Translations under genes and position numbers: made by a program
The notes under the pieces: model-generated
The model's database searches: none
Seen by the model: the letters and a program-made list of their open reading frames with translations, nothing else
Told to the model about the DNA's origin: nothing
Shown here: in pieces, positions 2,949-26,341 of the stretch
Position numbering within the stretch: the first letter of the stretch is position 1
Layout: each line of letters opens with the position of its first letter
DNA from: Gammaproteobacteria bacterium
Lineage (GTDB): Bacteria > Pseudomonadota > Gammaproteobacteria > Pseudomonadales > Azotimanducaceae
Direction: 5' to 3'
Length of the DNA: 43,037 nucleotides
NCBI GenBank assembly: GCA_026707045.1
Contig: JAPOXO010000092.1
Location: 1-43,037 of the forward strand

Positions 2949-5900
2949 ATGAACGTTTCCAATTTACTGGCAATTGTCTCTGCGGAGATGCGATCCTGCC
3001 GAAGACTGATACGTACTTGGGTCTTTGTAGCAATAGCCTTCATCACTAGTGGTGTCATGTGGCTGTGGCTCTGCCTCGCGCATGGATTTACTTCTTATGT
3101 TTCCCCTTCCGCAGGCCTATTGGGACCCCACTTCGTAATTTCCAATATGGGTAGCGTGATCGTGTTTCTGTTCTCGATAGGCATCGTTTTTCTTGCATTT
3201 GATGTCAGATCGAGAGATATCAGAGATCGCATTCAAGAAGCAGTAGACACACGCCCAATGTCGAACTTCGAGCTGTTGTCCGGCAGACTGCTGGGAGTTG
3301 TGCTACTTCTTGCCATTCCTGCAGCCGCTCTAATCTTGACTGTGTCAGCTCTGGGATTCCTTGCAGAAGTAATCGGCTTTAGGTTTGGTGCGGGCAGCGA
3401 ACCCGCTAGTGTCATTGCTTTTTTAGTTTGGGACATCGTTCCCAATCTCCTTCTGTGGGGCTCGCTGACGGTGTTCGTATCCGTCGTTGTGCGCTTTCGG
3501 TTGATTGTCGTCGTGATTCTCGGTGGTTTGCTGTTTGGTTACTTCACTTTAAGCAACAGAATTCCATTTTTCCTTGCATCAGTGCTGTCGACGTTCAGTG
3601 GTAGCGATGCCTTCCCATCGGCACTAGCGCCCCAGTTGTTCAACCTGGACATCTTCCTCAATCGAACTTGCATTGCAATCTTCTCAGTAGGCTTGCTCTT
3701 GCTTACGTCCGCAATCCTGTCGCGTCAGAATCCTCAAGGGACGAAGACGTATGAGTTACTTGGAGGAGCTCTTGCCGTAGGGATTTCGCTACTAGGTGTC
3801 TACGGACTGGCTCAATTCAAAATGGGAGAGTTGCGCCAGACTGGGGATTGGGCCCAATACCACGCCGAATATCAATCGAATTCTCTGACAGACATCGATT
3901 CGATCAGTGGTACAGTGGAGATCCACCCGGGACGAAATATAAAGCTAGATCTGATTCTGAAATTCTCCTCTTCAACCCTACGAACAGGAGATGTGAGGTT
4001 GATAACGCTAAACCCGGGCTACCAGATTAAGAGTTTAGAGTTGGATGGTAGCTCGGTGAAAGAGTTTGAATTTGAGAGTGGCTTGCTCAAATTACCTGTA
4101 ACGAATGAAAGTGCCTCTTCAACGCAGTTACGGTTGATCGCCAAAGGAGTCCCCGATCCAAATTTCGCATATTTGGATAGTTCCCTCAAGTGGTCCGAAA
4201 TGGACTATTTGCAAGCTCGGGAGGCATTTCGTTTCGGGACACAGTCATACATATTTCATCCACAATTTGTAGCACTGACGCCAGGAGTTAGTTGGTTTCC
4301 TGCTTCCGGATCGGCATACGGTAGGTCGGACCTACGGAAACGACCTCAAGACTTCTTCAATCTTGACATCGAAGTCAGTGTTCCACGTGAGTGGATCGTG
4401 GCGGGACCAGGCACTCGAGACCTGTTAGATGAAGGCAAGCGAACCACTTTTCGATTCAATCCAAGAAATCCAATACCTGAATTGGCCTTAGTTGGATCGA
4501 AGTTCGAACGGCGCACGCTGAACTTGGAGGGCGTCGAGTTTGAGTTGCTGCTTAATAAAAAACACACTAAGAACTTGAAAATATTGGAGTTGGTTGTCCC
4601 AGCACTGAAAGAATGGCTCAGCGAATTGCTCGGAAAATCACGGGAATTGGGATTGGAATATCCATACGGGACACTATCCTTCGTGGAAGTCCCAGTCTCC
4701 ATGAGGGTTTACGGAGGAGGTTGGCAAATGGGGAGTGTATTTTCTCCTCCTGGCATCCAAATGATCAGAGAATCAGGCTTTCCTATTGCTCGATTTGACT
4801 ATCCAATTGACGGACAGCGCCAAAACTTCGAAGACGAATCGGATTTGTATGCAGAGTACGTACTTGGGCTTCTCAATGCATATTTTCAGAACGGCTACGA
4901 CGGAGGGAATCCTTTTCTGCACATGGGCAAAACGTTTATTGGTCATCAGACCTCACCAGAGGGTCCAGGTGCAGTAGCCGTGGACTTTCTTATCGACGAA
5001 CTCACCCAGAAATTACTCACAGAAGCCGAAGGATACTTTTCTATTCCAGCTCTATTTTCGGGCAACACCTTCAATCAAATCTCAACTACAACTTTCAACT
5101 CGGGCGGTGGATTCGGCTCAACTCCAACATACCAAAACCTAGATTGGCGTGGTCAATTCAGTCGCAAACCTTCAGTGTGGGAACTCATGATTGAATCACC
5201 TCTCGTTGGGTTGGATTTTGAAAGTAATCCCGTCGATGCATATCACGTTTTGCTACTCAAGATTGGCGAAGTTTCGGAACTAATTCTGGAATTTGGTGGT
5301 GAAGAAAAGGTTGGCGCACTCTTGCGTGAATTGGTCAGCCGTTACAAAGGCAAAAACTACGGCGAAGAAGCCTTTCTATCAACCGCGATGGAAGTGGATT
5401 TGGACTTGGAGTCCATACTTGGAGACTGGCTCCACGACTTGGAACTGCCAGGGTTCATCGCTTCAGATCCTATTGTTGAACGTTTGGCGGACACCACTGC
5501 TGGAGAGCCAGTGTATCAGTCAAGTTTTGAAATTCGCAATGATGAACCCGCACCGGGAGTGGTTGGAATTTCGTATGTAGACGACTTGGCTGGCCCTGAA
5601 GAACAGTATTTGGAGACTGTTAGGATTGATGGGCTTACATCGCTTCGCATTGCATTTCAAACCATTGTTCCACCAACACGGGTAGTCTTGGATCCCTATC
5701 TATCTCTAAACCGAGATCCGTTTCATCTCGACTCTCCAAGTCGTGACAGCATTGAGCGCTCTGATTCGCCAATCTTGCCTTTTGTGACGGATTCGGACTG
5801 GGACCCAATTGATGACAACGTAGTTACTGTTGATGATCTCGACGAAGGTTTCTCTTGGATTGGCGTAACGGACGAAAGTGCTGAGAGCTTGACAGATCCA

Positions 5901-6446
5901 ATGCTTCCCAGATGGATCACATTCTTATTCGCAAGGGATTCCACTCCAATTGAGATGGATCGAGGAATGCCCGAGCTAACTCACGCACTCAAAACTCTGT
6001 CGGACAACCCGTTAGAGTCTGGCCGGTGGTATCGCGAGACAGCACCTTTGAGTTTTGGCAAATATAGACATACTCATGCGATAAACATGTTGCGGTCGGA
6101 TTCAATCAGTGCAAAATTCACCGCAGACATACCTATCTCCGGGAGGTGGAAATTAGAATTCCATGTTCCAGCCGTGAACCGAAAGCAATATCAATCCTCC
6201 TATAGCCCTGGTCCCGGCACGATAATCTCTTGGTCGCGACCAACTACGTTAGGTGTGTATGAAATCGCTGTAAAAGGCGTTGGCAAGGAGTCAATCACTG
6301 ATCTGGACGCGTTCAATGCCCCGCACGGTTGGAACGATATAGGGAATTTCGACCTCGAAGCCGGAACGACCGAAGTAATTTCGACGCCGAAATCTAACGG
6401 TGCAAGTGTTGGTGATGCAATTAGGTGGACGCTTGTTGAAGAGTGA
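2949..6446 (+). CDS. ABC-2-type permease fused to a degenerate M1-peptidase-like domain
   Basis: A 1165-aa protein. The first 290 or so residues contain about seven hydrophobic membrane segments arranged as in ABC-2-type permeases of the ABC/M1-aminopeptidase fusion class. The rest is a large region of beta-sandwich and M1-like (gluzincin) layout predicted outside the membrane, including VPVSMRVYGGGWQMG and a later helical part. The M1 zinc signature HEXXH is nowhere in the protein; the corresponding stretch reads FLHMGKTFIGHQ near residue 660. The domain therefore looks catalytically dead, perhaps acting as a binding or sensing module. Relatives are usually encoded just after an ABC ATPase gene, but none precedes it here. 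Assignment is from architecture; the substrate is unknown. Confidence 0.65.
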   Translation: MNVSNLLAIVSAEMRSCRRLIRTWVFVAIAFITSGVMWLWLCLAHGFTSYVSPSAGLLGPHFVISNMGSVIVFLFSIGIVFLAFDVRSRDIRDRIQEAVDTRPMSNFELLSGRLLGVVLLLAIPAAALILTVSALGFLAEVIGFRFGAGSEPASVIAFLVWDIVPNLLLWGSLTVFVSVVVRFRLIVVVILGGLLFGYFTLSNRIPFFLASVLSTFSGSDAFPSALAPQLFNLDIFLNRTCIAIFSVGLLLLTSAILSRQNPQGTKTYELLGGALAVGISLLGVYGLAQFKMGELRQTGDWAQYHAEYQSNSLTDIDSISGTVEIHPGRNIKLDLILKFSSSTLRTGDVRLITLNPGYQIKSLELDGSSVKEFEFESGLLKLPVTNESASSTQLRLIAKGVPDPNFAYLDSSLKWSEMDYLQAREAFRFGTQSYIFHPQFVALTPGVSWFPASGSAYGRSDLRKRPQDFFNLDIEVSVPREWIVAGPGTRDLLDEGKRTTFRFNPRNPIPELALVGSKFERRTLNLEGVEFELLLNKKHTKNLKILELVVPALKEWLSELLGKSRELGLEYPYGTLSFVEVPVSMRVYGGGWQMGSVFSPPGIQMIRESGFPIARFDYPIDGQRQNFEDESDLYAEYVLGLLNAYFQNGYDGGNPFLHMGKTFIGHQTSPEGPGAVAVDFLIDELTQKLLTEAEGYFSIPALFSGNTFNQISTTTFNSGGGFGSTPTYQNLDWRGQFSRKPSVWELMIESPLVGLDFESNPVDAYHVLLLKIGEVSELILEFGGEEKVGALLRELVSRYKGKNYGEEAFLSTAMEVDLDLESILGDWLHDLELPGFIASDPIVERLADTTAGEPVYQSSFEIRNDEPAPGVVGISYVDDLAGPEEQYLETVRIDGLTSLRIAFQTIVPPTRVVLDPYLSLNRDPFHLDSPSRDSIERSDSPILPFVTDSDWDPIDDNVVTVDDLDEGFSWIGVTDESAESLTDPMLPRWITFLFARDSTPIEMDRGMPELTHALKTLSDNPLESGRWYRETAPLSFGKYRHTHAINMLRSDSISAKFTADIPISGRWKLEFHVPAVNRKQYQSSYSPGPGTIISWSRPTTLGVYEIAVKGVGKESITDLDAFNAPHGWNDIGNFDLEAGTTEVISTPKSNGASVGDAIRWTLVEE

Positions 6447-6486: not shown

Positions 6487-7653
6487 TTATTCCAATACTT
6501 CGCGTAGAAAGTGAAATAGTCCACACACTTCGACATCATTTCGAATCCTATAGGGTCTCTGGGACATGCAAACAACAATGCTTCTACGCGGCCTTATTGT
6601 GTCAATAGCCGAGTAGAAACCTCTGGAGGGGGGGCGCGACATTGATTGCTTGATCTCGATGGCCCAAAGATCGCCAGTTCGATGCCATTCAAGCAGCAAG
6701 TCTATTTCTGCGCCGTCGGCTGTGCGGTAGAACATGGGAGTGGCTCTGTCTCCAACTGCTCCAACAATTTGTTCGATTACAAATCCCTCCCAACTGAATC
6801 CGCACACCGGATGGCGAAATAGGTCATCGTTCGATTGCAGGTTTAGCATTGCATGGAGCAACCCGGTGTCACGAATATAGATTTTGGGTGCCTTTACAAG
6901 ACGTTTGCCGAGATTAGGACTGAAAGTGTTCAACTTCCGTACAAGAAGCAGATCTTCTAGAAATTCGATATATCTAGAAACCGTTGGTGAAGTCACTTCC
7001 AGAGATGAAGCTAGTCGGGCCGAATTCAGCATCGTGCCTTGATTGTGCGCAAGCATCGTCCATAGTCGAGCGATCAAGCCCGTCGGCAGGCGACTACTGA
7101 ACTGCGGCATGTCTCTCTCTACATATGTACGCACAAAGTTCTTGCGCCATACTATGCTGTCTTCTTCGCTTGAAGCAACAAAACTCAAGGGAAATCCGCC
7201 TCGTAACCATAGCCTTCCAATCTCTTCCTCGCCGACTTCGGTGCCACTTAGCGGTTCTAGACTCACATATTCAATTCTTCCAGCCAGAGATTCACTACTT
7301 TGCTTGATCAGATCCACCGATGCAGACCCTAGAATGAGAAATCTTCCCGCGAGCAGACCTTTGCGACGACCTTCATCAATCAATCCACGCAGCGCAGGAA
7401 AAAGTTCGGGAACTCGGTGAATTTCATCTAGTACCACGAGCGAATTTTCGAACTGGCGCAGGAAGAATGTGGGGTTTTCTAAGCTTTGACGGTCTTCAGG
7501 ATTTTCGAGGTCGATATATACATGCTCGTGACTCCGTGCGAGAGCAAGAGCCAATGTTGTCTTACCAACCTGACGAGGTCCAAGTAGACCAACAGCTGCC
7601 TGACGCCGCATGGCTGTCTCTAGGATTTTTGCTGAAAGTCGGGGTATTAACAC
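6487..7653 (-). CDS. AAA-family ATPase with DUF4143 domain
   Basis: A 388-aa protein with a Walker A motif GPRQVGKTT at residues 25-33 and Walker B LVVLDE at 72-77, matching the AAA_14 domain. The C-terminal half, from about residue 170, is the DUF4143 domain, with the nuclease-like pattern RTADGAEIDLLLE followed by AIEIKQS. This PD-(D/E)XK-like arrangement of D, E and K is common in the family. Members are widespread in mobile or variable gene pools and their role is not established. The start is a GTG at 7653 with no clear ribosome site, but the residues downstream of it match the usual family start. It converges with the permease gene, 40 bp apart. Confidence 0.85.
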   Translation of the reverse strand: MLIPRLSAKILETAMRRQAAVGLLGPRQVGKTTLALALARSHEHVYIDLENPEDRQSLENPTFFLRQFENSLVVLDEIHRVPELFPALRGLIDEGRRKGLLAGRFLILGSASVDLIKQSSESLAGRIEYVSLEPLSGTEVGEEEIGRLWLRGGFPLSFVASSEEDSIVWRKNFVRTYVERDMPQFSSRLPTGLIARLWTMLAHNQGTMLNSARLASSLEVTSPTVSRYIEFLEDLLLVRKLNTFSPNLGKRLVKAPKIYIRDTGLLHAMLNLQSNDDLFRHPVCGFSWEGFVIEQIVGAVGDRATPMFYRTADGAEIDLLLEWHRTGDLWAIEIKQSMSRPPSRGFYSAIDTIRPRRSIVVCMSQRPYRIRNDVEVCGLFHFLREVLE

Positions 7654-15203: not shown

Positions 15204-15770
15204 CTAATCCAAATAGTCGAAGACGGTCACGACTTTTTGAACGCCTCGTATGTAGCGGACTGCTTCTGCCGCCGCCCTGCCTTCGCTTCGAGTAACAATT
15301 CCGAGCAGGTAAATAGTCCCTTTGTCTACAACCATGGCTAGTCGGTCATTTGGAGCTTTTTCATCTTCCGCCAACTTAGATCGGGCCAGCATCGACAGCA
15401 CTGAATCCGATGTCCGGCCTATCACTGTTCGAACTGGTTCGGTTAAAACTTCGTTTTGAACAATCCTTACATTCTCGACCCGATATGCCGCTGTACTAAC
15501 CAATTGTTTTCGTTCAGACGTTGAAAGTTGTCCGGTAAGTAAAACGATTCTTTGGTAAACCGAAACTCTGATTCTTTCGTCTCGTAGTTGACCTAGTTCT
15601 TTGTAGATTTCGTTCTTGACTTTTCGCGTCAGCTCCTTGTCGTCTAGTCGCTCTCCTGGAGAACGAATATCGGATTGTGGCATGGCAGAAACGCAACCGT
15701 GCAGCACCAGCAAAACACAGAGCGTTGCGGCGCTAGAAAGAGCTCGAAGATACTGCGGTATAGCTGTCAC
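15204..15770 (-). CDS. dolP: Dual BON-domain outer membrane lipoprotein (DolP/YraP-like)
   Basis: 188 aa. A lipoprotein signal with lipobox VLHGC places the acylated cysteine at residue 26. Two BON domains follow, about residues 45-115 (KNEIYKELGQLRDERIRVSVY, LLTGQL) and 120-188 (SVLSMLARSKL, IYLLGIVTRSEG, VRYIRGVQKVVTVFDYLD). E. coli DolP binds phospholipid, localises to division sites and supports outer membrane integrity. The start overlaps the lpoA stop by 4 nt. In E. coli and Pseudomonas, yraN and diaA separate these two genes; here they are absent. Confidence 0.9.
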   Translation of the reverse strand: MTAIPQYLRALSSAATLCVLLVLHGCVSAMPQSDIRSPGERLDDKELTRKVKNEIYKELGQLRDERIRVSVYQRIVLLTGQLSTSERKQLVSTAAYRVENVRIVQNEVLTEPVRTVIGRTSDSVLSMLARSKLAEDEKAPNDRLAMVVDKGTIYLLGIVTRSEGRAAAEAVRYIRGVQKVVTVFDYLD

Positions 15771-17605
15771 TGCGGATTGCTCAACAGAGAAGAAGACTGA
15801 GATCGGCTTCTATACTGAATTACAGGCGCGGGCACGAGAGAATGTTGCGCGACCGTCCCCCAAATTGGCTGACGAGAAATCACACCGGATTCACGAATAG
15901 AGAAAACTCCTGTGTGTCCAAATAAGGAATCACCTCGAGCCAAGACTGGTATGTTTAAGGCTACTCGGTACGCATCCATTCCAAAAGCATAGAGCGGAAA
16001 CAACTCTCGCGCATCGGTAAACGATCCATGAACTTCCTGAATCAAAGAGTTGGGATAGAGAGTAGCGGGGATGCTTGTAAAGAGCGTGCCGTTCTCGTAT
16101 TCGACGCGTTGTTCTCTATCACGAAATGTCGGTTCCGCAACTACGATTGGAATATCTCCAGCAAAGTGATACTGCAGTGCTGCAGTAACGGATCCAAATT
16201 CTGCGTAGTCCACGAAGGCAACAATGGCATCGATGTCTTCACGTCTTCTTGCCCTGAATTCGACCTCGCCGATTAAGTCTTCTAGCCGCTCGTGTCGACT
16301 ATTGCTCTGTGCTACTAGAAGAACCTGCGAAACACTCTGGGTAATTTCACTCAAATCACTCAAAAGAGTTTCGTCAGCGATTCTGATTGCAGGTGACAGT
16401 GCTTCTTTGAGGGCAACGGATGCACGAGCACACCAAAAGTCTTGACCAATAAACAGCAGAATACGTTCTGCCCTCATATCTTGAAGCTTTCTAGCAATCG
16501 CCGAAACATCGTCCTCTACAACCATACTGAGTTGCAGCGAAGAAGAATTGGAAACTGCAGTTTCCGAGACTCTGTTGAGAGCCACAACTGGAACTGCCAA
16601 TGTGTCTCCTCGGACTAGAGCACGTACTCGGTCTTTGTCTAGCGGACCCACGACAATATCCACTCCGTCGGCAATAACTTGATCGATTAAAAGACTAATG
16701 TCGGATTCTTCCGTGTCGTACAACTCAACACTGATGCTTCGATTCCTTCCAACAACCGAAAGGTGTGCTGAAAGAAAACCGTTTCGAATTGCTCTCGCCG
16801 CGCTTGACAGTGAGCCTGCTTGAGGGAGCAAGAGTGCCAGGCGTTTTGGCTTCTCGTACTCAGTTATGTCGATTTGGAGGGGCGGATAGAGTGCAGCTAA
16901 GTGATTGGCATGCCCAAACTTCCACTGCTCGAATCGTTCGTATTGCTGTGTTGGTGTAATGGAACTCCCAATCAGTTGCGCGAGTTCCCACCAATCCTCG
17001 GCGCTAGATGTATGTTGAGGTTGGTCGTCTTGTCCACGATACATGCACCAGCTCGTAAGAACGTCCCATATCTTTCTTGACCAAGCTAGGCTGTCGGCGG
17101 CTCCTATGGGAGAAAATTTCGACAGGTCATCGACTGTGTTCTCACAGTCTTGTAGTACCCAATGCATGTGACCGAGAATCAGCGCTTTGATTCCGGACTC
17201 TGAATAATTCGAAGGCACGAGTCCCCCGGCAAGCAGCAACCCGACACTTGGATTGTCGGAAAATTCCTTTAAAGCGCGAAGCGCTAGTGAGTCAAAACTC
17301 GTGGTCGGTGAGTTTGTATTTGTTTGTAACGCATCTATCCATGACTCAAGATAATTTTTCGCCAGCGTGAATTGACCAAGTTCATTGAAAGTATCGAGGT
17401 TGTTGACGGTATCTGCTAGCCAGTGAGACCAAACGCTTTCGTCACTCGCTCGAGTTTGCTCTGAGTCCGTTCCGTTTAGCAAAGTATCTCCAATCGGAGC
17501 TTGATGTGATGTACTCTGACATCCGCTCCCCATACCTATAAGTACGACACAAATGCACAGAAAAGAAAATGCCAGTGGTCGGCTATACGTAGTTGCAGTA
17601 CACAT
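15767..17605 (-). CDS. lpoA: Penicillin-binding protein activator LpoA (LppC family lipoprotein)
   Basis: 612 aa from the ATG at 17605; a further in-frame ATG at 17644 would add 13 residues. The signal segment PLAFSFLCICVVLIGMGSGC ends at a likely lipidated cysteine, though the residues before it are not an ideal lipobox. An N-terminal helical (TPR-like) domain of about 200 residues is followed by a periplasmic-binding-protein fold from KRLALLLPQAGSLSSAARAIRNGF onward, including DIVVGPL and FGMDAYRVA. LpoA reaches from the outer membrane to activate PBP1A. Its 5' end overlaps that of rsmI, which runs the other way. Confidence 0.93.
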   Translation of the reverse strand: MCTATTYSRPLAFSFLCICVVLIGMGSGCQSTSHQAPIGDTLLNGTDSEQTRASDESVWSHWLADTVNNLDTFNELGQFTLAKNYLESWIDALQTNTNSPTTSFDSLALRALKEFSDNPSVGLLLAGGLVPSNYSESGIKALILGHMHWVLQDCENTVDDLSKFSPIGAADSLAWSRKIWDVLTSWCMYRGQDDQPQHTSSAEDWWELAQLIGSSITPTQQYERFEQWKFGHANHLAALYPPLQIDITEYEKPKRLALLLPQAGSLSSAARAIRNGFLSAHLSVVGRNRSISVELYDTEESDISLLIDQVIADGVDIVVGPLDKDRVRALVRGDTLAVPVVALNRVSETAVSNSSSLQLSMVVEDDVSAIARKLQDMRAERILLFIGQDFWCARASVALKEALSPAIRIADETLLSDLSEITQSVSQVLLVAQSNSRHERLEDLIGEVEFRARRREDIDAIVAFVDYAEFGSVTAALQYHFAGDIPIVVAEPTFRDREQRVEYENGTLFTSIPATLYPNSLIQEVHGSFTDARELFPLYAFGMDAYRVALNIPVLARGDSLFGHTGVFSIRESGVISRQPIWGTVAQHSLVPAPVIQYRSRSQSSSLLSNPQ

Positions 17606-18431
17606 CGGAAACGTTGAGGATTTATCGGTTCGAGCGGTTCGCATTCTTCAGACGGTAGATCGAATCGCCTGCGAAAGTGTTGCGCATACCAAGATACTAC
17701 TGGATAAGCTCGGCATTCCTTTCAATAGATCAATGCTCATTGTTCTCAACGATATAAACGAAAGCAAACAGAGCAAGCAGATCTTGGATCTTGTCAGTCA
17801 AGGCTCTGACGTTGCGATTGTCACGGATTCTGGAACGCCATTAATTTCCGACCCAGGTTTCACTGTGATAAGACGCGCATTTAAGCGAGGCCAAACAATA
17901 GTGCCGATTCCAGGTCCGAGTTCGTTAACCACAATCGCATCGGTTTGTCCGATTCCGCTGAACACGTTTCAGTTCATTGGATTCGTTCGGCCAAGCGGCC
18001 TGGAAAAAAGAAAACATCTCATGTCGATTGCTGAATCCACGGTTTCATCGATCTTCTTCGAGACGGCGAAAAGAATCCAATCCACTTTATCGACTCTGAT
18101 CGAGCTAGGATTCGGCGAACGAGAATTGTTTCTCGGCAGGGAACTCACCAAGATTCACGAGGAGCTGCTGCACGGCTCGGTAGATGAGCTCTATTCCCAA
18201 TTGAACTCGCGCACCACACAACTTGGAGAATTTGTTGGAGTTCTAGCCAAGAATGAAACCGTAAGTGCGAGGCTGGACTCGGACGGGTTGATTCGAGAAT
18301 TGCTTCCACATGTCAAGGCTTCGAAGGTCGCTGCCATAGTTTCAAGACTCACGCCAATGAAGCGAGAAGATGCCTACTCACGAACTGTCGAACTGCAGGA
18401 ACTACTGGATCGCACAAAGAAAGTTGATTGA
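17553..18431 (+). CDS. rsmI: 16S rRNA (cytidine-2'-O)-methyltransferase RsmI, divergent
   Basis: 292 aa of the tetrapyrrole-methylase fold. RsmI methylates C1402 of 16S rRNA using S-adenosylmethionine. The clearest matches are TDSGTPLISDPGF and PIPGPSSLTTIAS near residues 90-130. Several other signatures have drifted: the usual TPIGN near the start reads VHIGN (V16-H17), EDTRHT reads ESVAHT (41-46), and the ESPHR-type motif reads ETAKR. The fold and genome position (lpoA / rsmI / rnpB) support the name, but activity is less certain than usual. The ATG at 17553 is the only in-frame start before the conserved LYVVA strand, so the first 53 nt are also the 5' end of lpoA on the other strand. Confidence 0.88.
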   Translation: MHRKENASGRLYVVAVHIGNVEDLSVRAVRILQTVDRIACESVAHTKILLDKLGIPFNRSMLIVLNDINESKQSKQILDLVSQGSDVAIVTDSGTPLISDPGFTVIRRAFKRGQTIVPIPGPSSLTTIASVCPIPLNTFQFIGFVRPSGLEKRKHLMSIAESTVSSIFFETAKRIQSTLSTLIELGFGERELFLGRELTKIHEELLHGSVDELYSQLNSRTTQLGEFVGVLAKNETVSARLDSDGLIRELLPHVKASKVAAIVSRLTPMKREDAYSRTVELQELLDRTKKVD

Positions 18432-18947: not shown

Positions 18948-19331
18948 TCAGGGCCGTAGCTCGAAATATAAGTGATGGTGCAAACGGCATCCAGGATTGA
19001 AATGAGCTTTGCAGTGAGGACACTGATCTTTGCCATCCAAGTAGGTGTCAATGGATAGTCGTGTACCGCAGCTTCCGCAAATAATTGCTTTTTTCTTCCC
19101 TTCCGAAAATTGCCACATGACGGACTCGTGGTCAGTCAACTCTTCATGGCAAAAATAGCAAGAAAACCAATCTCCACAACACTTGAACCGAATGCCAACT
19201 ATGTCAAGGGGACCGTGGTAATGGACGCATCGAGTCTGAGCATCTATGCCTCTTCCATTGACGGTAACACCCCCAATACAAACCTGATTTTGTTGGGATG
19301 TTGTTTTCCGATCTTCCACTCGCCAGCTCAC
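18948..19331 (-). CDS. CHY-type zinc finger protein
   Basis: 127 aa rich in Cys and His. The order C-x-HYHGPLDIVGIRFKCCGDWFSCYFCHEE, then H-x(n)-WQF, then ICGSCG and CPHCKAHFNPGC-x-LHHHLYF, is that of the CHY zinc finger (named for its CHY residues, here C-V-HYHG), which binds three zinc ions. Bacterial members are small and of unknown function; in eukaryotes the domain occurs in ubiquitin ligases such as Pirh2 and in the mitochondrial protein Hot13. The start is GTG at 19331 with no strong ribosome site. It converges on rnpB and diverges from the prodomain-like gene, and is the first gene of the insert between rnpB and rsmH. Confidence 0.85.
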   Translation of the reverse strand: MSWRVEDRKTTSQQNQVCIGGVTVNGRGIDAQTRCVHYHGPLDIVGIRFKCCGDWFSCYFCHEELTDHESVMWQFSEGKKKAIICGSCGTRLSIDTYLDGKDQCPHCKAHFNPGCRLHHHLYFELRP

Positions 19332-19613: not shown

Positions 19614-20258
19614 ATGAAATTGATTCGCACTCGTACTGTGATTCTTGCGGTTTCGGTCGCTGTCTTGGCACTGGTCGCGCTGTTTTCCTTCTTTCTCTTC
19701 AATCAACAGCACTTTCAATCGCAATCGGAAAACGAGTCTGTGCAAGAGATTCAAACTGAGGTTGGAGCCAGTGGGTCAACTGCTGCTAGCAATCCTCAGA
19801 ATTCACGTGCTGACACGAACACGCACGAGGCATGGAGCGAAACCAATGTTGAAGACGTACAAGCGTCACTGGTTCCAAAATACAAGGAAGAAGTCGAAGG
19901 CGCATCGTTGGTTGAGCTAGCACAAGACATGCAGCTGTGGCGGCAAGATGACCAATTGCGAATTTCGGTACCGCAGACTCAAGAACAGTTTCTTGTAACT
20001 ATTGCAGAAGTCATTACCACGCTCGGCAACAACCGTTCCTACAAAGGCAAGATTGTGGACGGAGAGAGCTCATACTCGTTCTTGATTACGGTTGGGGAAC
20101 GGAACGTTTTCGCTAACTTCACAACCTCTGAAGGGAGCTTTGAACTGGTCGGCAATAACCAATACGCGTGGCTTATGCCGACTGAGAACATGGACCAGCA
20201 CGTCGACTACACAAAGGACGACTTTTTCATACCGGAAATTGAGCATGGATCTCTCTAA
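19614..20258 (+). CDS. Membrane-anchored protein resembling a metallopeptidase prodomain
   Basis: 214 aa from the ATG at 19614 (an upstream in-frame codon at 19584 is less likely). The N-terminus is basic followed by one membrane segment (VILAVSVAVLALVALFSFFLF), then a Ser/Gln/Asn-rich linker. The rest, about residues 95-205, runs LRISVPQTQEQFLVTIAEV, NRSYKGKIVDGESS, FLITVGERNVFANFTTSEGSFELVG and YAWLMPTEN. That pattern of short strands resembles the N-terminal prodomain found within many bacterial M12B-like (reprolysin-like) metallopeptidases. The resemblance is by eye and is inference. The gene ends 14 nt inside the next one, which encodes exactly such a peptidase without that region, suggesting a prodomain encoded as a separate, membrane-tethered protein. 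Confidence 0.55.
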   Translation: MKLIRTRTVILAVSVAVLALVALFSFFLFNQQHFQSQSENESVQEIQTEVGASGSTAASNPQNSRADTNTHEAWSETNVEDVQASLVPKYKEEVEGASLVELAQDMQLWRQDDQLRISVPQTQEQFLVTIAEVITTLGNNRSYKGKIVDGESSYSFLITVGERNVFANFTTSEGSFELVGNNQYAWLMPTENMDQHVDYTKDDFFIPEIEHGSL

Positions 20259-23200
20259 GCGGACACAAGTACTCGGCGCAATTGCGCTGATCGCAGTTGC
20301 AGCGTTGTCTCTCAGTGCGAACGACGAAAGAGCGTTTTTCGAATGTCCGTGCACTTTGGAATTCGATGGAGAGGAGTCCTTTAGCTTGACCGCCGGATTC
20401 CGCAATTATTCCAATATCGATCTCAAGAACATGAAGGTTCAAGTGCTGTTACAAAGTGACCGCTGGTTCTATAGCTACAGCAGGGTCCTAGCCACAATTG
20501 AGATTGATCAAACCCTGCCAAAGGGAGGCGTACTCGTCGAAGGTACGTTTGATCAGTCCACGAAACACCAGGTTTCTCTGGATGACGACTACTACGTGCT
20601 GTTGCGGCTTGAAGACAGAGGCCAAAACTGGGACGACTCGATTTACATGAAGGAAAAAATAAATCCTTCCAACGAATTCACGATTCACTTTCTCGATTTT
20701 CTAGCGGACTCCGACGACGATGGTGTGAGCGATCTAAATGAAGAATTGGAAGGTACCGATCCCGACAATCCTTTCTCGGTTCCACCCGACACAGTTATTG
20801 ATGTGGTCGCGTTGTATGGCAAGAACTTTGCAAAGGAATTTGACGGGGATGCGACCACCCGTATACAGCACGTCTTTGAACTTGCAAACCAATATCTGGA
20901 CGACAGCGATCTTCCCATGCAATGGCGGATCGTCGGTACCGTGGAAGTCGAAATGGACGACCAGACAACTAGGCTCGAGAATTTCGAAGATCTTTTCTTC
21001 GAAGGTGAACGACACGGATCGGATTTGGCCGTCTTGTTTGGACCATTTCCCGAAAAAGGCGGATACTGTGGCTTCGCTGGAATCTACGGCTGGGGCCGTC
21101 GCGGCGAATTGTCCCAAGTCAGTCTTGCCTATGCATTGGCAACGGTGGTGGGATCTTGTGGAGCTCGTACATTAGCTCATGAATTGGGACACCTGATGGG
21201 TTTGCACCACTCCGTATGGCAGCACTCCACGGGAGCATGGAGATGGTCCCGCGGACACTCAGTAACTGGTGATTTCTATACCTTGATGTCATACGGCGGC
21301 CAGGGAGGGTCCGCTCAGCATGTTTTCTCAGACCCCGACGCGGAATGCGGGACTCAGGACTCACCATGTGGCGACCCTCATGACATGGACACGGCGGCGG
21401 ATGCGGTGGCAACGCTGAACGCAGTTCGTTTTCAATACGCTCGAGCACGCGATTCATTTGAAGACAGCGATGGAGATGGCTTTGTCGATCCGGTGGATGA
21501 CTTTTCGAACGATTCATCAGAGTGGGTAGATACCGATGGCGATGGAGTGGGAAACAACGCTGATGAAGATGACGACGACGACGGCTATTTGGATATCGAA
21601 GACGCATTTCCCTTGGATTCATCGGAATATCTTGATAGTGACGATGATGGTATCGGAGACTTGACAGACGTCTTTCCCAATGACCCGACTGAATGGGAGG
21701 ATTCCGACGGCGACGGTGTAGGAGACAACTCCGACGACTTTCCGTTGGATTCGAGTGAATGGGCCGATACCGATGGCGACGGAAGGGGAGATCAAACCGA
21801 CTTATTCCCGGAAGATTCCACCGAATGGGCGGATAACGATGGAGACGGCATTGGGGACAATGCAGACAAGGATGACGATGGCGATTCAGTTCGCGACGTC
21901 GAAGATGCATATCCGTTTGATGAAAGCTTGACGGAATTCTTCTCCTACAAGTTCGTACTAGAGTCCGCAGGTGATAGTGCGACCAACGCCGTTGGATTTC
22001 GAATTTCGGAAGACGACTTCGCCGACACTCACCTTGTGATCGGAGTACCTCAATTGTCGAACGGTGGTATTAACACCGGAGGTGCCTATCTGTTGGCGCT
22101 AAACGAACTAGAGGAATTAGATCGCGCCGATGGAGCTACAGATCACGTTGTCAGCCTATCAAGCGTCGTTGATTCATCAATGTCATGGAAATTCATTGGA
22201 ACCGAAGATCTAGGCGCAGCAGGAGATTCCGTAAAGGTAGGTGATATTGACGGCGACGACAGCCCCGACGTGGTAATTGCTGTCTCCAAAGCGAACCACG
22301 GTGGAACCAGATCGGGTTCGTTGTACATCATTCCATTTGCACAGCTGGACGAGATTGACGACGACGACGATCGAGTCGTTTCACTGAGTATGTCTGACAT
22401 TGGAGACTTCGGATTGCGACTCGATGGGGCAGGACTTCAAGAGCTGGGGTCAGACAACCAAATCGTTGTTGGCGATGTCGATTCCGATGGCTACGACGAT
22501 CTTCTTGTTGGCACCCACCATCAAATCTTGGATGACGACGAGGAAATGCGCGCTGTGGCTTACTTCATTCCTGGAAGCAGGCTCGGCTCCATGGATGCTT
22601 CTGATGGTGAGCAAGATCGGATCATCGATATTTTTGGAGCGCTGGGACCAAACGACTCACGACTGTTTATTTCAACGGATGGTTCCCGTGAAAATCGGGC
22701 AAGCGTCGACCTGAGCACCAACAACGATGGTGACAATCAATTGGATTTGCTGATTGGTGCGACGTCATTTGGGGATGAATCCGAAGGTTCGGTGTTTGTA
22801 CTTTCGGGGTCTCGCTTGTTGGAAGCCGACAATGCCGATGGTCAACAGGATGGACGCATTGATCTAGCAAATGTCGCAGCTCAACAAGAATCGTGGCATA
22901 TCACGGGATCTAGGTATTCTTCGTTGGGCGGGTTTGTTGCAACTGTAAATGACTTTTCTGGAGATGGCAAATCCGACTACGGGCTATCGGGATGGTCGTC
23001 TCTTTCTGTTGTGGGATCTCAAGATCTCGAAACCCTCGATTCAAACGATGGAAATTTGGATGGCAATATTTCGTTGACTGACGGCCTTGATACAGGAAAT
23101 TCTTTTGGCGTACGCAACATAAATCCCGTTGGTCCAGTGGCGAGCAACGGCGAAACCTTTGTTTCGTCTTCTGGTACTGCTTACCCGATATTCGGTGTGT

Positions 23201-25989
23201 TTCAGCTAAATTCCGGCACTTTGCAAGTTCTCGCTAGTAACGCCGTCGGAGGTCAGGGTTCAAGTTACCCTGCCAGCGAGGAATTCAGATCAAATGCACA
23301 ACTGATCCTCCCTCACAGACCGCTCTTGTGGCTTGGGAGCAATGTGGAGTTCCTATCGACAATCGATGGCGATGAGTTCGAAGACATGCTACTCACGGCT
23401 CCTGGAGACGATAGGGACGAGAGCGCCGACAGCGCTGTGTACCTGGTCTCTTCGCGTGACCTCGCCGCCCTTGAGCAACGCGATCGGCACACCGTCAACC
23501 TCATGCGAATTGATGAAATGTGGGGTGATCACGACAAAGACGGAGTGAAAAACTTCTCCGATGCGGATGACGACAACGACTACTTCCACGATTTTGAAGA
23601 TGCCTTTCACTTAGACGATTCAGAGTGGGAGGACTCGGATCGCGACGGATTTGGCGACAACATTGACGCTTTTCCGAGTAAATCATGGGAATACATCGAT
23701 ACGGATGCAGATGGACTTGGTGATTCCTTGGAAGATGATGACGACGACAACGATGGCATCCGCGATGCAGATGATGAGTATCCATTGGACACGGACAATG
23801 ACGGCATAGACAACGCCGTGGATACGGACGACGATAACGATGGCGTTCTCGACGACGACGATGCATTTCCCCTCGATTCGGATGAGACATCGGATTCAGA
23901 CCTTGATGGACTCGGTGACAATGCTGACACGGATGCAGACAACGACGGCATTGAAGACGATCTCGATGCTTTTCCACTTGATCCCTTGGAAACTACAGAT
24001 TCCGATGCCGACGGCGTTGGCGACAACAGTGATGCCTTTCCGAACAATTCTGATGAATGGGCTGATACTGACGGCGACGGTACGGGCAACAATGCAGACA
24101 CAGACGATGATGGAGATGGTGTCTTGGATGTTGACGATCAGTTCCCACTGGATCCGGCCAGATCCCTGGACTCCGACAACGATGGAGTTGCGGACGAGGA
24201 GGATGCCTTTCCAAACGATTCGAGCGAGTGGAGCGATCTCGACGAAGACGGAATTGGAGACAATTTCGATCCTGATGTTGACGGCGACGGAGCGATAAAC
24301 GAGGAGGACGAGTTTCCTTTGGATGGAACTCGATTCGACCTGCGTTCAGTGAGGTTTGTTGCTTGGAACGTACTAGCGGAAATAGGTGCCCAGGCGGGAA
24401 CTTCGGGTGACTCCGACGGCGATAGTTGGCACGACTTACTGCTGTCTGGTCAAACTGCTGACGAAAGGCACGACATCTATCTCATTTCTAGCGCGTCGTT
24501 GGTTTCAGCTGACGCAATTGATGGCGTGCGCGACGGAATCATCAATGCCAGATTTGTCACTGACTTTGTTAACTCGTGGAAGATTGAGGTTCCTGAAGAG
24601 GACGATGGAGGAATAGTTCAGCTGCATCGAGTGGGAGCGATTACCGACGAATTTAGAGATTCGTTTCTGGTGTCGACTTCAGCAGGAATTTACACCGATG
24701 CTTATGTGATCGCTCCGGCCGACATTGAAGCCCTGGATGAAGAAGACAACAATGCCAATAGCGAGATCAACCTTCAAGATCTTATAGCGTACGAGAATAC
24801 TTGGAGACTTGTCGGGGGCTGGGCTCACAGTTTGGGAAGCTCGACAACTTTTATCGCCGATGTTGACGGCGACGAAAAACCGGACATTTGCATTGGGGCA
24901 CCTGGAGCTGGCGCTGGAGGACGTCCAGGAAGCGTATTCATAGCTTCCTCTAGTGCATTGCAGTCGATTGACGCTTTGGATGGCTCAGACGGACTAATTC
25001 GGCTCACGAATGCAGTGAACAACTACTCCACTTTGGACGAGAAGGATCGAGTGTGGAGTTTCACAGGTGAGAACGCAAGGGATCAGGCGGGGTCCGCAGT
25101 GGCCACCGGAGACTTTGATCATGATGGTCTTTCGGACATTGTGATCGGTGCACCCAGTCACGATTCCAACGACAGGGATGATGGTGCGATCTACTTGGTA
25201 GGTAGCAGCGACTGGACAAACACAGACGAAGCGGACGGTCGCACAGACCGCCAAATCGACTTGAAATTTGCAGCCACGCAGCCAAGTTCGTGGAAATTTA
25301 TTGGAGATGGACCAAGAATTCAGTTGGGAACCAGTGTTGCGGTAGCGGATTTGAACCAAGACAGAATTGAGGAATTGATCGTAATTCAACCGGGATCGGT
25401 CGACGTGATTGATGAGACTGACTTCGCCTCTCTGGACGAAGCCGATGGAATTGCAGATGGGATCATCGTGGTTCGCGACTTATCCGCTACGGAGAATTCT
25501 TGGCGCTTTAGTTGTCCGACAAACTGGAACAGCTGTAGCGTTGCCGTCGTCGACGGACCGTCATCCGCAAGCGGTCGCTCCATCATCATAGGCAAAATAG
25601 GCGGTTCGACAGAGGCCACAATTGCCTACTTAATCTCTCGAGATGACTTCGAAAGCTTGGACGAATCGGATGGTACGGTGGATCGGCTACTTGATTTGTC
25701 AAATGCCCACGAGCTTCCTCATTCTTTCAAGTTTGAGAGTAGCGAGTTCGAGCGTTCATCCGTAGTTACTGATTTCGTCGACGCGGGTGACGTTGATGGC
25801 GACCGTAGATCGGACTTGCTTCTCACGATTCGCGATAGCAATTGGAATTCATCGGTTGCGACGGTTACATTTGTCATTTCTTCGGCCGAACTCGACTATA
25901 TGGATGGAATGGACGGGAAGTCTGATGGTGCAATATCACTCGAACGCATGACATCTCGCATACGCAGAATTATTGAGCTTGAGGAATGA
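20245..25989 (+). CDS. Secreted reprolysin-like zinc metallopeptidase with TSP3 and FG-GAP repeats
   Basis: 1914 aa from the ATG at 20245, the start followed at once by a signal peptide (ending near LSLSA). Order: beta-sandwich-like region (about 30-150), one Asp-rich repeat (about 155-177), and a metallopeptidase domain (about 185-400) with the zinc signature HELGHLMGLHH at 312-322 and a Met-turn TLMSYG with M348. Then come a first run of thrombospondin type 3-like calcium-binding repeats (about 408-558), a first FG-GAP/integrin-alpha-like region (about 566-1089), a second repeat run (about 1093-1359) and a second FG-GAP region (about 1366-1914). No C-terminal sorting signal is evident. Probably exported and calcium-stabilised, acting on extracellular protein or in adhesion. 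It overlaps the upstream gene by 14 nt. Confidence 0.85.
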   Translation: MDLSKRTQVLGAIALIAVAALSLSANDERAFFECPCTLEFDGEESFSLTAGFRNYSNIDLKNMKVQVLLQSDRWFYSYSRVLATIEIDQTLPKGGVLVEGTFDQSTKHQVSLDDDYYVLLRLEDRGQNWDDSIYMKEKINPSNEFTIHFLDFLADSDDDGVSDLNEELEGTDPDNPFSVPPDTVIDVVALYGKNFAKEFDGDATTRIQHVFELANQYLDDSDLPMQWRIVGTVEVEMDDQTTRLENFEDLFFEGERHGSDLAVLFGPFPEKGGYCGFAGIYGWGRRGELSQVSLAYALATVVGSCGARTLAHELGHLMGLHHSVWQHSTGAWRWSRGHSVTGDFYTLMSYGGQGGSAQHVFSDPDAECGTQDSPCGDPHDMDTAADAVATLNAVRFQYARARDSFEDSDGDGFVDPVDDFSNDSSEWVDTDGDGVGNNADEDDDDDGYLDIEDAFPLDSSEYLDSDDDGIGDLTDVFPNDPTEWEDSDGDGVGDNSDDFPLDSSEWADTDGDGRGDQTDLFPEDSTEWADNDGDGIGDNADKDDDGDSVRDVEDAYPFDESLTEFFSYKFVLESAGDSATNAVGFRISEDDFADTHLVIGVPQLSNGGINTGGAYLLALNELEELDRADGATDHVVSLSSVVDSSMSWKFIGTEDLGAAGDSVKVGDIDGDDSPDVVIAVSKANHGGTRSGSLYIIPFAQLDEIDDDDDRVVSLSMSDIGDFGLRLDGAGLQELGSDNQIVVGDVDSDGYDDLLVGTHHQILDDDEEMRAVAYFIPGSRLGSMDASDGEQDRIIDIFGALGPNDSRLFISTDGSRENRASVDLSTNNDGDNQLDLLIGATSFGDESEGSVFVLSGSRLLEADNADGQQDGRIDLANVAAQQESWHITGSRYSSLGGFVATVNDFSGDGKSDYGLSGWSSLSVVGSQDLETLDSNDGNLDGNISLTDGLDTGNSFGVRNINPVGPVASNGETFVSSSGTAYPIFGVFQLNSGTLQVLASNAVGGQGSSYPASEEFRSNAQLILPHRPLLWLGSNVEFLSTIDGDEFEDMLLTAPGDDRDESADSAVYLVSSRDLAALEQRDRHTVNLMRIDEMWGDHDKDGVKNFSDADDDNDYFHDFEDAFHLDDSEWEDSDRDGFGDNIDAFPSKSWEYIDTDADGLGDSLEDDDDDNDGIRDADDEYPLDTDNDGIDNAVDTDDDNDGVLDDDDAFPLDSDETSDSDLDGLGDNADTDADNDGIEDDLDAFPLDPLETTDSDADGVGDNSDAFPNNSDEWADTDGDGTGNNADTDDDGDGVLDVDDQFPLDPARSLDSDNDGVADEEDAFPNDSSEWSDLDEDGIGDNFDPDVDGDGAINEEDEFPLDGTRFDLRSVRFVAWNVLAEIGAQAGTSGDSDGDSWHDLLLSGQTADERHDIYLISSASLVSADAIDGVRDGIINARFVTDFVNSWKIEVPEEDDGGIVQLHRVGAITDEFRDSFLVSTSAGIYTDAYVIAPADIEALDEEDNNANSEINLQDLIAYENTWRLVGGWAHSLGSSTTFIADVDGDEKPDICIGAPGAGAGGRPGSVFIASSSALQSIDALDGSDGLIRLTNAVNNYSTLDEKDRVWSFTGENARDQAGSAVATGDFDHDGLSDIVIGAPSHDSNDRDDGAIYLVGSSDWTNTDEADGRTDRQIDLKFAATQPSSWKFIGDGPRIQLGTSVAVADLNQDRIEELIVIQPGSVDVIDETDFASLDEADGIADGIIVVRDLSATENSWRFSCPTNWNSCSVAVVDGPSSASGRSIIIGKIGGSTEATIAYLISRDDFESLDESDGTVDRLLDLSNAHELPHSFKFESSEFERSSVVTDFVDAGDVDGDRRSDLLLTIRDSNWNSSVATVTFVISSAELDYMDGMDGKSDGAISLERMTSRIRRIIELEE
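21466..21918 (+). repeat. First thrombospondin type 3-like repeat block
   Basis: Within the metallopeptidase gene. Successive units of roughly 23 residues read D-x-DGDG-x-x-D, then D-x-FP-x-D-x-x-EW-x-D (for example DTDGDGVGNNADEDDDDDG and DDFPLDSSEWADTDGDG). The Asp spacing is that of calcium-binding TSP3 repeats. DNA identity between units is partial, so the repeats are old rather than recent. Confidence 0.8.
23521..24320 (+). repeat. Second thrombospondin type 3-like repeat block
   Basis: A second, longer run of the same Asp-rich units, about 265 residues, separating the two FG-GAP regions. Units include DDDNDGIRDADDEYPLDTD, DDAFPLDSDETSDSDLDG and DAFPNNSDEWADTDGDG. Strong GA/TC codon repetition (GAC/GAT) makes the opposite strand open in several frames; those frames are artefacts. 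Confidence 0.8.
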
Positions 25990-26163
25990 CAATTCCCGCT
26001 GACTTGATCGATTTATAGCTTAGAACCGATCTATTCTGGAATTTCGACCCGAAACATAGACAACGGCGGCTCAAATATCGTTGCCGGCACCCCAGAAATT
26101 CGTTTTATGTGTGCAACCCATTGGCGTCGGTTTACGTGTCACAAATTGTTGCTACTGCAATAG

Positions 26164-26192
26164 TTGTACAAAACTCAATCATTGAGTAATAT
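26164..26192 (+). promoter_or_regulatory. Candidate dcw promoter with palindrome in its spacer
   Basis: TTGTAC at 26164-26169 and TAATAT at 26187-26192 are 17 bp apart, a weak but correctly spaced sigma-70 pair. The spacer is almost filled by ACTCAATCATTGAGT (26173-26187), a palindrome with 7-bp arms around one base, a good place for a repressor. The transcript would start near 26199 with a leader of about 130 nt. Confidence 0.4.
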
Positions 26193-26245
26193 TTGACTAT
26201 CGGCGTGTGGATTCACGGAATGATGAAGGCGCCGATTCACTGAAG

Positions 26246-26287
26246 ACGTGAAATCGATTGAATGGAGGCAACGTGCGAATTTCACGT
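26246..26287 (+). promoter_or_regulatory. Leader hairpin upstream of rsmH
   Basis: ACGTGAAAT (26246-26254) pairs with ATTTCACGT (26279-26287), nine perfect base pairs around a 24-nt loop. The loop contains GGAGG (26264-26268) and a GTG (26273) that opens a 22-codon frame running into rsmH. A regulatory role is inferred. Confidence 0.4.
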
Positions 26288-26341
26288 ATAGCTCTCTTCG
26301 CCCATTCGCTTTTCTGCGATGCGGATGAGCTATGCCGGTAA
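26273..26341 (+). CDS. Possible 22-aa leader peptide overlapping rsmH
   Basis: GTG at 26273 has a GGAGG ribosome site four bases upstream, a better one than rsmH itself has. The frame encodes MRISRIALFAHSLFCDADEL followed by CR and ends with TAA at 26339-26341, overlapping the rsmH ATG at 26332 by 10 nt. Stop-start overlap suggests translational coupling into rsmH. The peptide matches nothing I recognise and shows no MraZ similarity. It may be chance. Confidence 0.3.
   Translation: MRISRIALFAHSLFCDADELCR

Follow-up and report, generated by a model that had tools for sequence, protein, structure and literature searches.

Organisation of the gene pair

The window analysed here (the whole stretch of DNA studied, 43,037 nucleotides (nt), positions 1 to 43,037 of contig JAPOXO010000092.1 in the Gammaproteobacteria bacterium assembly GCA_026707045.1) carries on its forward strand two overlapping genes, which encode a small membrane-anchored protein of 214 amino acids (aa) and a metzincin peptidase of 1914 aa (Table 1). 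The lengths of both products, the 14-nt overlap, the zinc motif, the membrane anchor of the small protein and the signal-peptide-like start of the peptidase had all been reported in an earlier sequence-only reading, and they were borne out by the open reading frame (ORF) coordinates, the alignments, hydropathy and structure modelling. One relative (G006) also has a 14-nt overlap, with the same 10-nt overlap of the matched stretches, and the spacing differs in the other relatives.

Table 1. Features of the small-protein and peptidase genes (window positions; residues refer to the respective protein)
Feature	Positions	Strand	Basis
Small-protein gene, BamI/CpaB-like; putative prodomain-like, membrane-anchored chaperone/inhibitor	19614..20258	+	ORF from ATG 19614 to stop 20258, 214 aa; BamI/CpaB profiles; CpaB fold match
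N-terminal membrane helix, residues 2-37	19617..19724	+	hydropathy, modelled helix, alignment A1 rows by eye
Prodomain-fold domain (predicted), residues 70-196	19821..20201	+	
C-terminal tail, residues 197-214, conserved D198 and D203 (D203 codon 20220-20222)	20202..20255	+	alignment counts
Overlap of both reading frames, 14 nt (ATGGATCTCTCTAA)	20245..20258	+	ORF coordinates
1914-aa metzincin gene, N-terminus hydrophobic (signal-peptide-like)	20245..25989	+	ORF from ATG 20245 to stop 25989; Reprolysin_5, FG-GAP and Mep72 profile matches
N-terminal beta domain, residues 30-148, not prodomain-like by profile	20332..20688	+	secondary structure; hhalign
Metzincin catalytic domain, residues 179-404	20779..21456	+	
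Zinc motif HELGHLMGLHH, residues 312-322	21178..21210	+	sequence, alignment A2
First Asp-rich thrombospondin-type-3-like repeat block, residues 407-546	21463..21882	+	DxDxDG-type motifs, starts 407-541
Second Asp-rich repeat block, residues 1095-1349	23527..24291	+	DxDxDG-type motifs, starts 1095-1344

The small protein begins with a hydrophobic stretch in which 13 overlapping 19-residue windows (starts at residues 2-14) have a mean hydropathy of 1.65-2.88, and its structure model has a single N-terminal helix over residues 2-37. The distinction between signal peptide and anchor was drawn from hydropathy and the structure model. Behind a linker of low model confidence (about residues 38-69) lies a beta domain with a block-mean pLDDT (predicted local distance difference test) of 90-98 over residues 71-190, followed by the conserved tail. 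After removal of fragments and duplicates, Asp occupies the D203 position in 33/37 small proteins and in 4/5 prodomains fused to single-chain peptidases, and the D198 position in 33/37 and 1/5, respectively. Because fragilysin is held latent by an aspartate switch (PMC9950733, PMC9848320), we regard D203 as a candidate zinc ligand, or zinc switch, by analogy.

At the N-terminus of the peptidase, four hydrophobic windows start at residues 6-9. The catalytic domain displays the features of M12B (adamalysin-like) metzincins, namely HEXXHxxGxxH, a Met-turn motif (beginning at residue 346) and the catalytic fold. In the alignment of 25 peptidase sequences (A2, the window peptidase among them), H312, E313, H316 and H322 are invariant (25/25) and M348 is nearly so. 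Reprolysin_5 (E 1.2e-9) and FG-GAP (E 7.5e-14) were matched, as was TSP_3 under its cut-off (E 0.0019). The whole chain contains 28 DxDxDG-type motifs besides FG-GAP repeats, and a DNA repeat (21686-21848) lies inside the first Asp-rich block. The peptidase may depend on calcium, because of these Asp-rich, thrombospondin-type-3 (TSP3)-like and FG-GAP repeat motifs.

Relationship of the small protein to metzincin prodomains

Sequence profiles connect the small protein to the fused prodomains of single-chain peptidases, reversed-profile controls being far weaker, and structure comparison assigns it the predicted fold of CpaB (periplasmic domain). In the fold search, rows 2-17 were metzincin zymogens only. 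The resemblance to M12B-like prodomains noticed from the sequence is thus upheld by a profile link and a shared predicted fold, and the small protein appears to be a metzincin prodomain by homology, with a stronger link in sequence and a weaker one in fold. No link to the small family emerged when the N-terminal regions of 13 and of 11 other single-chain peptidases were compared with it by profile. The likeness might reflect a generic beta-barrel shape, the small protein being an unrelated export adaptor, for example of the SRPBCC type proposed for CpaB in 2016 (PMC4713064), but this is very improbable and largely refuted by the zymogen-only rows of the fold search and by the profile tie to fused prodomains.

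Among family profiles, the small protein matches the BamI equivalog (NCBIfam NF052435; 36.7 bits, E 3.8e-9, under the curated cut-off of 180 bits) and the CpaB equivalog (NCBIfam NF033512; 17.8 bits, E 0.0025, under the curated cut-off of 90 bits), the latter also matching 16 of 35 relatives at E 0.01 (best 3.4e-9). The peptidase matches the Mep72 equivalog (NCBIfam NF052434) over residues 184-415 only (122.7 bits, E 1.7e-35), short of the curated cut-off of 645 bits. In a wide sense the small protein belongs with CpaB and BamI, having one N-terminal membrane helix, the CpaB fold by prediction and a gene adjoining that of a metzincin. Two other assignments were rejected: Pfam DUF5411 (21.8 of 30 bits, E 0.00019, 2/35 relatives), below its cut-off, and TIGR04526 (20.2 of 150 bits, 2/35 relatives), which covers only the anchor and linker (residues 5-92).

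Distribution of the pair and of unlinked copies

The pair was sought in 58 genomes, comprising its own genome and relatives; we take the relatives' bins that carry it to be of sponge-metagenome origin. Of the 58 genomes, 25 have the small protein, at 36 places, and 29 have the peptidase, in 55 rows. The same adjacent pair, whose recurrence the sequence-only reading had proposed as a check, does recur: 25 of the 36 small genes adjoin a same-strand peptidase match, 24 of them upstream of the peptidase and 1 downstream, and because of this recurrence the pair is more than a chance arrangement. The 11 non-adjacent genes are ten "orphans", all in the genus, plus a broken copy in G036. Use of a profile added five adjacent or divergent small genes missed by BLAST (L058, L062, L064, L099, L180). 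Individual arrangements vary: in G032 (L057:664-3834) the small gene follows the peptidase, the order seen in cpaAB; in G035 (L099:4626-7935) the two are divergent; and in G036 (contig C137, L096:6738-7413) the small gene is split over two frames, with no HEXXH ORF among those listed in 13 kb. Seven extra peptidase copies of about 1800 aa (L075-L081) have no small gene alongside (the contigs of L078 and L081 end too soon to tell), and their genomes also carry a paired copy. One of them (L080:4407-9796, G009 contig C27) is apparently interrupted in the assembly, since it reads as two ORFs (632 and 1181 aa).

Across 369 genomes of the class, the BamI profile retrieved, apart from the own genome, a single weak match at profile positions 5-81. 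Alignment A1 revealed no clear stand-alone small protein beyond the own genome, only a fragment of 148 aa that lies next to a fragmentary peptidase close to a contig end (G155). Matches in G111 (columns 3-71) and G260 (columns 6-63) were discarded, as they cover anchor and linker only. Either the split form is rare outside the family/order sample, or the BamI and A1 profiles are too narrow.

The beta domain that precedes the catalytic domain of the window peptidase (residues 30-148) could be a retained prodomain, with the small protein as an accessory; peptidases of about 1300 aa likewise carry an N-terminal beta domain and have no adjacent small gene. However, this domain did not match the small family in a profile comparison by hhalign (E 0.23; the fold of the domain alone was not searched), in agreement with the earlier claim that the peptidase lacks the prodomain region. 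Moreover, in six paired peptidases from other genera the catalytic domain begins close to the N-terminus, with HEXXH lying 154-188 residues after the first Met, and all genomes with a ~1300-aa peptidase (8/8) also hold an unlinked small gene. A retained prodomain therefore seems scarcely credible.

The own genome (G000) contains three peptidases (contigs C80, which is the window, C4 and C23) and three small genes (C80, C4 and C42). Those of C80 and C4 form adjacent pairs; the C23 peptidase (1317-aa ORF) and the C42 small gene each stand alone, and the own-genome search gave no peptidase match on the C42 contig. The C42 orphan (261 aa, L005:6213-6998) overlaps a neighbouring ORF starting at 6979, presumably glycosyltransferase-like. 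The ~1300-aa peptidase genes (L067:6411-10361 on C23, and L068-L074) have as neighbours what we take to be an ArsP-like permease gene and ABC peptide-permease-like genes, and in several relatives rnc-era-recO is close by as well.

In the genus (18 genomes), the orphan and the ~1300-aa peptidase occur together in 8 genomes and are both missing from 8; another 2 carry the orphan without the peptidase, and 0 carry the peptidase without the orphan (Fisher p 0.001, uncorrected for shared descent). Both trees place (G014,(G006,G000)) against G010 and the rest, the order within the rest being weak or differing. In the peptidase tree the ~1300-aa peptidases form a clade with the C80 type as its sister (95/88); in the small-protein tree, the placement of the orphans beside the C80 type lacks clear resolution. 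By mean distance, ~1300-aa peptidases (0.72 vs 0.80) and orphans (0.60 vs 0.67) are closer to the C80 than to the C4 type. Small-protein and peptidase distances correlate (r 0.99 among the 8 unlinked genes, 0.94 among the 25 paired ones), which supports coinheritance without proving it, because any two vertically inherited genes correlate within a genus.

Inspection of the site in G002 and G011 found no remnant of a ~1300-aa peptidase between intact flanking genes. Core identity of the orphan to G013 is 77.5 and 66.5 % in these two peptidase-less genomes vs 87.9-91.1 % in three genomes that retain the peptidase. The same comparison gives 83.3 and 70.4 % vs 83.3-86.3 % for the adjacent glycosyltransferase fragment, 93.4 and 88.4 vs 94.7-95.0 % for era, 92.4 and 85.8 vs 87.6-88.1 % for rnc, and 85.9 and 83.9 vs 91.2-91.6 % for the ArsP-like permease. 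With this mixed picture from the control genes, faster evolution of the orphan once the peptidase is lost is only a hint, because n=2 and G002 has diverged throughout.

In scans for promoters and terminators, no signal rose above that of shuffled sequences. Elsewhere in the window, a 127-aa CHY zinc finger protein (PF05495, E 8.7e-12) is encoded at 18948-19331 (-). After the peptidase gene, rsmH/mraW (26332; PF01795) and then a penicillin-binding protein gene follow a 342-nt gap (25990-26331), presumably too short for an ordinary mraZ. Two ORFs (742-1893, 383 aa, and 2949-6446, 1165 aa) have no Pfam match at E 1e-5. An LppC ORF (15767-17644, -) and a tetrapyrrole-methylase-type ORF (17553-18431, +) overlap head-to-head by 92 nt as mechanically listed, and their true starts may lie further in.

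A probable split zymogen and its known counterparts

We consider it highly probable that the pair is a split zymogen, in which an M12-type (adamalysin-like) metzincin has its prodomain encoded by a separate gene and equipped with its own inner-membrane anchor. This is supported by the gene anatomy, the homology to fused prodomains, the shared predicted fold, the adjacency, the correlated distances and the presence of a secretin gene (GspD profile, 418.5 bits vs a cut-off of 351.35; the search for the type II secretion system (T2SS) in the own genome covered the secretin only). Both proteins would enter the periplasm by Sec, and the anchored prodomain would bind the folding catalytic domain, its C-terminal tail laid across the active site with D203 ligating zinc. 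So bound, it would keep the enzyme silent and aid its folding, until the peptidase is passed to the T2SS and released, the anchor staying behind. The sequence-only idea of a membrane-tethered inhibitor or chaperone for a secreted peptidase seems right in substance; what is inferred in it is the binding and inhibition, the zinc ligand, the route of secretion and the release.

The small protein could instead be solely a periplasmic inhibitor or self-protection factor, like AprI, without a role in folding or export. Indeed, BamI was named an inhibitor (PMC4334185): Mep72 alone is toxic to E. coli, and BamI binds Mep72 and relieves this toxicity in a mode left open. In the literature consulted, only CpaA is documented to need its partner for export. 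On the other side, the small protein has the predicted fold of CpaB, without which CpaA is not secreted (PMC4713064), and a hydrophobic N-terminal anchor runs, by eye, throughout the aligned family (A1). An inhibitor-only role thus appears rather unlikely.

For the CpaB/BamI class as a whole, we lean with some reserve towards an origin by gene fission, as detached ADAM/fragilysin-type prodomains that act in trans through an aspartate switch in their tail; within the genus, one copy would have moved away from its ~1300-aa client, been coinherited with it and evolved faster after client loss. In the portions of the literature searched, such an origin was not found stated beyond the remark that the CpaB tail is "similar to zymogens" (PMC7542363), and the main CpaA/CpaB papers (Journal of Biological Chemistry, JBC 2017, 2019) may discuss it. 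The pair suggests that CpaB/BamI-type chaperones are detached safety-catch prodomains, which would tie a class whose mode was open (BamI) or guessed to be SRPBCC (CpaB) to the zymogen prodomain, a device that is well understood. This view predicts the tail position and the zinc-touching residue, makes the anchor matter because the safety catch thereby stays behind, and would account for single-chain relatives managing without the small gene.

Lipase-specific foldases (Lif/LipB) are presumably unrelated in fold and client to the small protein and peptidase of the window. They are likewise membrane-anchored, client-specific T2SS steric chaperones, and Table 1 of PMC4713064 names one LipB as serving a lipase, LipC, whose gene is unlinked. 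In ADAM17 and profragilysin the prodomain lies on the enzyme's own chain, that of fragilysin being removed by cleavage (PMC9950733, PMC9848320), whereas in the window it would be a separate membrane-anchored protein.

A close known system is CpaA/CpaB of Acinetobacter, a T2SS glycoprotease with a membrane-bound chaperone (PDB 6O38). CpaB is anchored in the membrane, its periplasmic domain binds the enzyme 1:1 and its tail obstructs the catalytic site; if the anchor is missing, enzyme and chaperone are secreted as a complex (PMC7542363). The gene cpaB lies downstream of cpaA (PMC4713064), whereas the small gene of the window lies upstream with an overlap; identities in structural alignments are 11-21 %, the CpaB profile cut-off is missed and, unlike CpaA, the window enzyme has 1914 aa with TSP3-like and FG-GAP repeats. 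In Mep72/BamI of Pseudomonas aeruginosa (PA2783/PA2782), the inhibitor gene is cotranscribed with that of a T2SS-exported metzincin, and Mep72 has 599 aa with two carbohydrate-binding domains (PMC4334185). The window pair resembles it through the BamI and Mep72 profile matches, both short of their curated cut-offs, but its enzyme is three times longer and has an extra N-terminal domain. The pair thus belongs, as a divergent member, to the same kind as CpaA/CpaB and Mep72/BamI, and its enzyme is unusually large.
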